NCBI GenBank assembly: GCA_016841955.1
Contig: JAENYE010000002.1
Span: 251,344 to 315,343 of the forward strand
Length of the DNA stretch: 64,000 bases
Source of the DNA: Methanobacteriota archaeon
GTDB taxonomy: Archaea; Halobacteriota; Methanomicrobia; Methanomicrobiales; Methanoculleaceae
Direction of reading: 5' to 3'
Below, in pieces: positions 2,640 to 45,214 of this stretch (position 1 is its first letter; each line of letters starts with the position of its first letter). Under the pieces are notes generated by a model, which made no database searches, was not told the origin of the DNA, and was given only the letters and a program-made list of their open reading frames with translations. A program made the translations under genes and the position numbers.

Positions 2640-3110
2640 TGCTCAAGATGCGAGGACAAAACCCCGTACACTGGACCGTGGGGGTATCGCCATGACTGCC
2701 CCGCCCCCGGGGCGGGGAACGAATGCCGGAACGGCAGGAGTTTGAGCACCGCAGGTGCGAATGACGACTTCCCCGAAGGGGAAGGAGGCCGAGCACCGTC
2801 AGGTGCGAGTGAGGAGCGCGAAGCGCGGGTGGGGTGGGGGCAACAGTGCTCAGATTCGGATCTTGAGCACCTGGGGTGCGAGCTGGAGACAGGGGAGGGG
2901 GGCGAGCCCCCCTCGCACCTATCGGTGCTCAAGCTCGCTGCGCTCGCACTCCCCGTCAGCCCCACCTCGCACCTTCGGTGCTCGAACTCCGCTCCTGCGG
3001 AGCGTCGTTCCCCCAACGGCGATATCCCCTTGAAATCCGTGCACAGGGTGTCTCCAACCCGGACTTTCGGTGCTCAGGCTCGCTACGGGCGCACTCTGCA
3101 TCCCCACCGC
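2640..3110. repeat. Hairpin-rich repeat element between the CBS operon and dhs
   Basis: The 776-base gap 2452-3227 has no convincing gene. It holds an array of small inverted repeats. GAGCACC-x-GGTGCGA modules lie at 2744-2760, 2791-2808 and 2865-2882, the reverse orientation (TCGCACC..GGTGCTC) at 2913-2930 and 2967-2984, CTTCCCC-GAA-GGGGAAG at 2768-2784, and GCGC-GAA-GCGC at about 2816-2826. The left and right halves are inverted relative to each other. Outer parts (about 2668-2692 and 3017-3050, GTRCAC..GGGGRTATCGCC) also match imperfectly in inverted orientation, so the whole region could fold into one large structure. Open frames across it are compositional artefacts. The same modules recur near 24.0, 45.0 and 59.2 kb. 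Confidence 0.75.
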
Positions 3111-23484: not shown

Positions 23485-23604
23485 CGGCACCGGAGCCCCA
23501 GGGCATGCATCAAACCCCCGATTTCTCATTTCACCTCCCAGGATCGCGGGAAAAGGCGCTTATATGACAAACACCAAGTTATAAAGCATTATCAGGTGAA
23601 CCGG

Positions 23605-25311
23605 GTGAATAAATACTCCTTCGTCACCAGGGTGCCCGACGAACCGGGCTCGTTGCACCGCGCGGCCGAGATCATCAAGTCGCACTCCGGCAACATCAAC
23701 CGTATCCAGTTCGACCGCAGGATCGATCCCTTGACCGTCTTCTTCGAGGTGACCGCCACACCGGAGGGTTACTCCCAGATGAAGGAAGACCTCCACGCGA
23801 TCGGCTACCTCCAGGAATCGCTGCCTACGCTCGGATTTCTCAGGTTTTCGGTATACGTCCCTCACGAACCCGGATCCCTCTTCGAACTCCTCACCTACAT
23901 CACCGGGGCGGGGGCAAACATCGCCTACATCGACTTCGACGACCGGCGGTGCGGCTTGGGATGGTTCGAAGCGCGACTGGCCGAAGGGCAGGAGCGTGAG
24001 CACCGAAGGTGCGAGGAACCGGAGCAGGAGCACCAAAGAACGATGTTCCATCAGGATGCGACGGTTCGTGAGAACCGGAGCTGGAGAGACCCTTCCGGGT
24101 TTCGAGAACGGAGTTCGAGCACCGAAGGTGCGAGGTGCGACTCCGGCAGGGTCACCATCAGCCTGAACATCGAGGAGACCGCTATCGTGGAGAGCCTGCT
24201 CGACCGGTTGAAGTCACAATATCGTCTCGAGATCCTCGAGTACGACACGACCGGCGAGAAGCTCGACGACACCGTCTTTTACGTCAGGTTCGCCCAGGCG
24301 GTGCGGGGGCTGATCGGGACGGCCGAGGATGAGTTCCTGCTCTCCCTCCTGCAGGACGTCAACCACATCGTCCAGGAACTCAACAGCCTCGGCCAGGACC
24401 CGAAGGAAGTCTTCGAGTGCATCCTGCTCACGGGAAGGACGCTCCGGAACACCACGAAAGATCGGTTTTACACGGAAGTCCAGCGTATCCCCCTCAGCGA
24501 CGACGTCGAGGTCTTCTGTTTCCAGATGCCGGGCGGCGGGAACATCTTCCTGCTCCGCACCCCGGACGAGACCGTCATGATCGACACCGGATACGGGATC
24601 TACCACCAGGACGCCGTGCGGATGTTCCAGCACTACGGTCTCGGGGATCCCGGGAAGATCCGCAGGATCTACATCACCCACGCCGATGCGGATCACTGCG
24701 GGGCGGGCGGGCTCTTCGCTGCAAAAGCGTATACGCACACCGGGTCGCTCGAGATCATCCGCCGGGCGAACCGCGCCTACGGCTCGCGCAGCGAGTCCTC
24801 GATCCTCGAAGAGGTCTACACGACCGTCATCAACCTCTTCTCGCACTTCACTCCGCCGGAGAACCCCGAGATCTTCCCGGCAGAGAGGATCGGCACACGG
24901 TCGATCTTTCCCGTCATTGCACGCTTTGCGGTCCACGACCTCGAGTTCGAGGTCCTCGAGTCCCTGGGCGGGCACATGCACGGCCAGGTCTACTTCTTCT
25001 GTCCGGGGCACGGGATCATCTTCACCGCCGATACCCTGATCAACTTCGGGAGCCTCGATGAGGAGCGGAAACGCTACAACTCGCTGGCCGACTTCCTGGT
25101 GACGTCGGTCAATGTCGACAGCGACTGTGCACGCCGGGAGCGTACGGCGTTGCTTGAGCTGATCCGGAACCTGGACGATGAGCTCGCCCCGGCCGGCCGC
25201 CGGTGCCTAGTCGCATGCGGCCACGGCGCCGTCTCCGTTCTGAAAGATGGAAGACTGGAAGCGGCCGGACCGGTCGAGCACTACCGGGCCGGAGAGTCGA
25301 GAGAGAGTTAG
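23605..25311 (+). CDS. Two-ACT-domain / metallo-beta-lactamase fold protein with in-frame repeat insertion
   Basis: Encodes 568 residues. GTG at 23605 is preferred because AGGTGA (23594-23599) precedes it; a GTG at 23596 is possible. ACT domain 1 spans residues 1-70 (VPDEPGSLHRAAEII). ACT domain 2 (VPHEPGSLFELLTYI) begins near 85 and should form a beta2-beta3 hairpin after IAYIDFDDR. Instead about 66 charged residues (roughly 116-181, bases 23950-24148) intervene before RVTISLNI resumes the fold. The C-terminal half is a metallo-beta-lactamase domain with THADADHCGAGG (near 359) and GHMHGQVYFF. ACT domains suggest amino-acid control of a hydrolase; the substrate is unknown. Confidence 0.88.
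   Translation: MNKYSFVTRVPDEPGSLHRAAEIIKSHSGNINRIQFDRRIDPLTVFFEVTATPEGYSQMKEDLHAIGYLQESLPTLGFLRFSVYVPHEPGSLFELLTYITGAGANIAYIDFDDRRCGLGWFEARLAEGQEREHRRCEEPEQEHQRTMFHQDATVRENRSWRDPSGFRERSSSTEGARCDSGRVTISLNIEETAIVESLLDRLKSQYRLEILEYDTTGEKLDDTVFYVRFAQAVRGLIGTAEDEFLLSLLQDVNHIVQELNSLGQDPKEVFECILLTGRTLRNTTKDRFYTEVQRIPLSDDVEVFCFQMPGGGNIFLLRTPDETVMIDTGYGIYHQDAVRMFQHYGLGDPGKIRRIYITHADADHCGAGGLFAAKAYTHTGSLEIIRRANRAYGSRSESSILEEVYTTVINLFSHFTPPENPEIFPAERIGTRSIFPVIARFAVHDLEFEVLESLGGHMHGQVYFFCPGHGIIFTADTLINFGSLDEERKRYNSLADFLVTSVNVDSDCARRERTALLELIRNLDDELAPAGRRCLVACGHGAVSVLKDGRLEAAGPVEHYRAGESRES
23950..24148 (+). repeat. Palindromic repeat insertion inside a coding sequence
   Basis: About 200 bases inside the ACT/metallo-beta-lactamase gene are built from the same hairpin modules seen between genes elsewhere. 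GAGCACC-GAA-GGTGCGAGG occurs at 23998-24016 and again at 24117-24135, with GAAC-GAT-GTTC, GGTTC-GTGA-GAACC and ACCC-TTCC-GGGT hairpins between them. The two identical copies are 119 bases apart, so they are read in different frames (REHRRCEE versus SSSTEGARC). This points to DNA or RNA structure rather than protein sequence as the conserved feature. The reading frame stays open. Boundaries are estimated from where ACT homology breaks off and resumes. Confidence 0.8.
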
Positions 25312-44763: not shown

Positions 44764-44940
44764 CGTGAAACGGTTGTCGGGGCAGCATCAAAAATGCATC
44801 GTTTCCAGTGCGGCGGGGATAGGCCGGCCCGGGTTAAATAGAAAGCCGCTCATCGGGTCATATTGCCTCCCCCCATTGGCACCCGGGTATTCATCGGGGA
44901 GGTTGCAGAGCACTTCCGGAGAGCCATCTATACACCGGCA

Positions 44941-45214
44941 ACTCACGCGAAGGCGCGAAGGCCGCGAAGTGCGACGGATGGAACATCCGGAGCTTGAGAA
45001 GACCGAAGGTCTTCGGAGAACGACGGGCCGAAGGGAGCGACGGACGGTGTCCGGAGCTTGAGAAGACCAGAGGTCTTCGAGTCCGGAGTTCGAGCACCGT
45101 CAGGTGCGAAGTGCGACTTCCCCGCAGGGGAAGGAGCATGAGCACCGAAGGTGCGAAGGGACGTTGCTAATACCCATCTACCGGTCTTCGCGCTCTTCGC
45201 GTCTTCGCGTGTGA
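44941..45214. repeat. Repeat element with terminal inverted arms and five or more internal hairpins
   Basis: The 609-base gap between cofC and cofG (44764-45372) contains no gene. The left arm ACTCACGCGAAGGCGCGAAG (from 44941) is matched in inverted orientation by CTTCGCGTCTTCGCGTGTGA (to about 45214). Inside are GGATG-GAA-CATCC (about 44976-44988), GAAGACC-GAA-GGTCTTC (44998-45014), GAAGACC-AGA-GGTCTTC (45062-45078), GCACC-GTCA-GGTGC (within 45092-45107), CTTCCCC-GCA-GGGGAAG (45117-45133) and GCACC-GAA-GGTGC (within 45140-45156). No transposase frame is inside, so a non-autonomous mobile or structural element is possible. Confidence 0.78.

Follow-up and report, generated by a model that had tools for sequence, protein, structure and literature searches.

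A probable nested cluster of mobile hairpin repeats lies in frame in an ACT-domain protein gene of Methanoculleus

A protein gene with ACT domains in the Methanoculleus genome studied here carries 186 bp of additional in-frame sequence, which is very probably a nested cluster of mobile hairpins kept by a functional gene as a tolerated loop. The gene and the features within it lie on the forward strand, the gene itself at positions 23596..25311 of the window, the stretch of 64,000 nucleotides that was analysed. Its open reading frame, Pfam matches and relatives define a protein of 571 aa with a GTG start, tandem ACT domains and a metallo-beta-lactamase domain (ACT 10-69, E 9e-8; Lactamase_B 312-491, E 6e-13); relatives were present in 77 of the 81 genomes searched. 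DNA and protein alignments place the insert at about 23954..24139, without counterpart in orthologues: insert-free Methanoculleus orthologues have an unbroken IAYIDFDDRRCDPGRVTISLN, whereas here RRC is separated from DSGRVTISLN by 62 residues. A sequence-only reading of this DNA had recognized the in-frame insert, its estimate of about 66 residues being slightly too high, and had expected orthologues to lack it. This is what we found in all other Methanoculleus orthologues aligned except one, the MAG of Methanoculleus sp. SM3-B2 (G012; loci L010/L039), a related genome that has a 180-bp version. A separate peculiarity was seen in the orthologue of UBA208 (G029; locus L040, 2001-3518), whose first ACT domain contains a TAG (GYL*ESL); this may reflect a sequencing error or gene decay.

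Within the insert stand two identical 19-base copies of GAGCACCGAAGGTGCGAGG, the A hairpin of the repeat described below, at 23998..24016 and 24117..24135. Counted from the GTG start, their offsets are 402 and 521, so that they are read in different frames (as EHRRCE and STEGAR), just as first reported. The RNA folding z-score of the insert is -3.95, and no known structured RNA family of Rfam matched at its coordinates. A PDB sequence search with the full-length host protein gave no match.

For an orthologue without the insert, AlphaFold gave a model of 160 residues (pLDDT 78) made up of two beta-alpha-beta-beta-alpha-beta units; ACT proteins, for example acetohydroxyacid synthase regulatory subunits and a glycine cleavage repressor, were its best matches in the PDB. 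Strands 108-114 and 123-130 flank the insertion site in this model. The model of the full-length protein has low confidence (pLDDT 54); in it residues 115-184 fall between the same strands, and confidence is lowest at the insert (pLDDT blocks 26-40). Taken with Pfam, the models support a predicted position in the loop that joins strands beta2 and beta3 of the second ACT domain. A palindromic repeat lying in frame in just such a loop was the central proposal of the sequence-only reading, and the empty-site orthologues, both models and the genus-wide repeat all agree with it.

The insert is built from a repeat that is dispersed through the genome. BLAST of the insert against its own genome gave 52 matches, and the A-hairpin pattern GAGCACC-G-N(1-3)-GGTGCGA has 87 exact matches there and 143 in SM3-B2, the reversed control giving 0. 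Some congeners have few exact matches or none, one further genus of the family has 15, and two single matches come from elsewhere in the order. The hairpin family reaches about 140 copies per genome in Methanoculleus; outside this genus, members of the order have it sporadically or not at all. Its structure was read from about 100 arrays, the own genome being read in stretches around repeats. Arrays alternate two hairpins, B (GCGAC-stem-loop-stem-GGAG) and A (GAG-stem-loop-stem-CGA), and a unit of about 41 nt comprises a B hairpin followed by an A hairpin (GAG-CACC-loop-GGTG-CGA). Units begin with GCGAC or ACGAC and finish with GGTGC-GAR, and their stems are short and GC-rich. No terminal inverted repeats were seen in the unit; a GAN trinucleotide is repeated at either end and, with this included, the insertion of one unit adds about 44-46 bp.

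The same modules had been noticed between genes at 2.7 and 45 kb, and sequence comparison of arrays found them at 2651..3042 (2.65-3.04 kb) and 44939..45214 (44.94-45.21 kb), both intergenic and given without strand; RNA folding of the latter yielded a z-score of -8.1. The first array lies inside a MITE-like carrier element, also present at many other loci of the genome, that has the ends GCACGGATTTCC...GGATATCGCCA and TGGCGATA...CCACGGTCCACTG and holds hairpin units. The second lies inside a carrier of another type, CTCACGCGAAG...CTTCGCGTGAG, which recurs across the genome. These carriers may be MITEs. The hairpin family itself is apparently undescribed so far. The accessible text of the satellite survey PMC6749651 and of other Methanoculleus papers makes no mention of it.

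Judged from its sequence, the best reading of the insert is a set of four double-hairpin units of about 45 bp, one inserted within another. Manual decomposition gives a primary unit N0 (23956..24138, net 45 bp) that nested units would split into pieces at 23956-23967, 24016-24034 and about 24134-24138. The nested unit N1 (23971..24015, net 45 bp) was identified in the B-hairpin loop of N0, in the context GGTTC-GAA[GC...GGTGC]GAG-GAACC. N2 (24038..24133; net 46 bp here, 45 in SM3-B2) would occupy the A-hairpin loop of N0, an arrangement that also occurs at loci L070, L133 and L148, and would itself contain N3 (24057..24106; net 50 bp here, 45 in SM3-B2), whose hairpin arms are wholly different in SM3-B2. 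The net lengths sum to 180 bp in SM3-B2 (4 x 45) and to 186 bp here (45, 45, 46 and 50).

Nesting was assessed across arrays by excising each GAR-flanked unit, whose flanks should re-form a hairpin if the unit sat in a loop. For 10 of 107 units a hairpin of 5 bp or more was re-formed, with 0.72 expected when right flanks were reshuffled, and an earlier, stricter version of the test found 5 cases of at least 6 bp with about 0.5 expected. These figures give statistical support to the view that units insert into loops of older copies. In the ACT-gene insert, the automatic test scored N1 only, N0, N2 and N3 being the result of manual parsing. An arm-shuffle analysis of covariation was noisy and mildly favourable only, and carries no weight in our argument. 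Net length is divisible by three in all five coding units and in one of nine noncoding nested units (p = 0.003), a post hoc comparison of few, partly related units; outside genes, a nested unit adds 44 or 46 bp, with one case of 63.

Comparison with SM3-B2 shows constraint on the host protein, dN/dS being 0.15 upstream of the insert and 0.21 downstream. In those parts of the insert that align without gaps, 10 changes are nonsynonymous and 2 are synonymous (Fisher p = 0.006 relative to the body), and differences in the larger of these parts fall 4, 3 and 1 by codon position, instead of mostly on the third. In the middle of the insert the two genomes have different hairpin arms, where indels sum to 6 nt so that the frame is restored. 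With purifying selection on the host and none at the protein level in the insert, the protein is maintained and the insert peptide is not, which makes the insert a tolerated passenger rather than a proven new module. Because selection has kept the frame and not the encoded peptide, the insert most likely forms a surface loop that is disordered and tolerated; it would be translated with the rest of the protein and is probably harmless. The first interpretation had left a choice between a tolerated insert and a new surface segment; dN/dS favours the former, and the latter fits less well. Adoption as a new functional surface segment of the ACT domain would explain why two lineages keep the insert with its frame intact while the hairpin modules changed, but given the lack of protein-level constraint, the complete replacement of the middle part and the minimum in model confidence at this very place, we regard it as improbable.

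A quite different possibility is that the protein is normal, the insert being spliced from the RNA as an archaeal intron. The insert RNA is indeed strongly structured, but its predicted fold does not pair the two ends with each other and no bulge-helix-bulge joins them; these ends are direct and not complementary repeats, which makes splicing unlikely, and a frame kept in both genomes would be needless if the insert were spliced. We consider an intron very improbable and retain the tolerated loop. Homogenisation or exchange may also have shaped the insert: N1 (window 23968-24015) is identical in the two genomes despite dS values of 0.24-0.51 in the flanking gene parts, which suggests homogenisation with other copies or exchange between lineages. 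Identity between the two genomes along the host gene is mosaic.

A second gene of the same genome, encoding a ThiS/MoaD protein (G000:C3:320047-320373; Pfam ThiS, E 3e-15), contains exactly 54 bp (18 aa) of the hairpin repeat, in frame, between LREV and LPAEH. This insert is common to the own genome and UBA208 only, and is absent from 11 others (G003, G005, G009, G012, G013, G015, G016, G017, G020, G025 and G027). The opposite pattern of sharing, with UBA208 and not SM3-B2 for this gene and with SM3-B2 and not UBA208 for the ACT gene, indicates separate events. The hairpin family has therefore entered at least two working genes without loss of frame, adding 62 and 18 amino acids in a predicted beta-hairpin loop.

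We envisage that a mobile, noncoding double-hairpin element of Methanoculleus entered a functional protein gene and became a nested cluster there. A first 45-bp unit would have entered at GGTGC-GAC, in the beta2-beta3 turn of the second ACT domain, either before the own and SM3-B2 lineages split or with later passage between them, and three further units would then have entered the loops of existing hairpins. The element most likely moved or was copied as the double hairpin of 41 nt, and its repeated GAN would be GAC in the ACT gene of SM3-B2 and GAA in moaD. Judged against the empty sites (GGTGC-GAC-CC), the left copy of the putative 3-nt target duplication is at 23953..23955 (GGC here, GAC in SM3-B2) and the right copy at 24139..24141 (GAC, part of the direct repeat GGTGCGAC in SM3-B2). 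Because the target GGTGCGAC matches the terminal sequence of the A hairpin, the cluster could possibly have arisen where template switching or recombination took place between short homologous stretches, such as the gene's own GGTGCGA, and not by transposition of units. Such an origin would be in keeping with the 8-bp length of the direct repeat in SM3-B2, with module differences between the two genomes that resemble ectopic gene conversion and with a copy number that correlates with no transposase. It accords poorly with a moaD target without GGTGC and with nested units that lie precisely in hairpin loops with GAR on both sides, and on balance we think it unlikely.

Candidate mobilisers for the transposition of units were also sought. 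The Y1 transposase (PF01797) was rejected, being absent from the repeat-richest genomes (G000, G003, G006, G012, G020, G029, G031 and G033); within the genus it occurs mainly in repeat-poor genomes, G010 excepted. Reverse transcriptase (PF00078) was rejected as well, as it is present in 3 of 35 genus genomes with no correlation with copy number; one such domain is encoded in the own genome at G000:C9:10365-10934. In the collections searched, viral contigs gave 0 exact matches to the hairpin repeat and plasmids gave no match. As a tentative generalization, the repeats could represent a new class of minimal mobile element: a double hairpin of about 45 bp, independent of Y1, that inserts into its own loops and occasionally into genes with duplication of GAN, and whose 45-bp variants accumulate stepwise in proteins.

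Rickettsia and Wolbachia are known to carry coding palindromes. The Methanoculleus family probably belongs with such coding palindromic elements, as it is dispersed in the noncoding DNA of its own genome and has in-frame copies in conserved genes whose orthologues are without them. Rickettsia palindromic elements are likewise intergenic palindromes found in frame within conserved protein genes, whose products tolerate them (RPE, Ogata et al. 2000; PMC2229807), but by description they are units of 105-146 bp in Rickettsia, whereas ours are nesting double hairpins of about 45 bp in an archaeon. The archaeal coding palindrome is not itself a first, and the sequence-only reading was mistaken in suggesting that it would be new: PMC2229807 and PMC2996958 both cite an earlier report, by Suyama et al. 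2005, of palindromic repetitive elements with coding potential in Methanocaldococcus jannaschii. As the citing papers describe them, these too are archaeal palindromes fused in frame into protein genes; they belong to another lineage, and the likeness is one of description.

GTAG/CGTC-tagged REPs, in the accessible text of Di Nocera et al. 2013 (PMC3733652), are bacterial families whose intragenic clusters encode 43 to 82 amino acids; they are defined there by a terminal GTAG or CGTC tag, the CGTC type having an 8-9 bp stem with AT pairs first. Short palindromes with intragenic clusters are common to both, but the Methanoculleus units have neither a GTAG tag nor a CGTC-type AT-first stem of 8-9 bp, which by that definition places them outside the REP superfamily, and the Y1 (TnpA-REP) transposase of the REP/RAYT system is missing from the repeat-richest genomes. 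Closest in mode of life are the GC42 clusters of yeast mitochondria, which, like the double hairpins of Allomyces mtDNA, are GC-rich hairpin elements comparable in size, duplicate only a very short target and have no known mobiliser (PMC4478555). Those elements are mitochondrial, and the likeness concerns mode only.

What appears to be new is the hairpin family, its nesting and its frame-compatible unit length. Archaeal coding palindromes are hereby extended to a genus with many sequenced species, whose orthologues let insertion, nesting, module exchange and selection on frame be read directly, and an apparently undescribed mobile hairpin family, for which the search described above found no mobilising enzyme, is brought to light. 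Selfish DNA, on this evidence, can lengthen proteins stepwise, in 15-codon units.

Genic copies are rare, with two among about 100 own-genome arrays. Nine other open frames across these arrays had no Pfam match and look spurious, and 60 loci of other genomes (G003, G012, G020 and G031) held no convincing further in-frame gene case. In G033 (locus L063, about 1470-1640), a nucleotidyltransferase-like gene is interrupted by an array that lies between GSFALGE and SDIDILIEF and introduces an in-frame TGA. Upstream of the isoleucyl-tRNA synthetase gene, a hairpin array is found in both the own genome and SM3-B2 (L109, L229).
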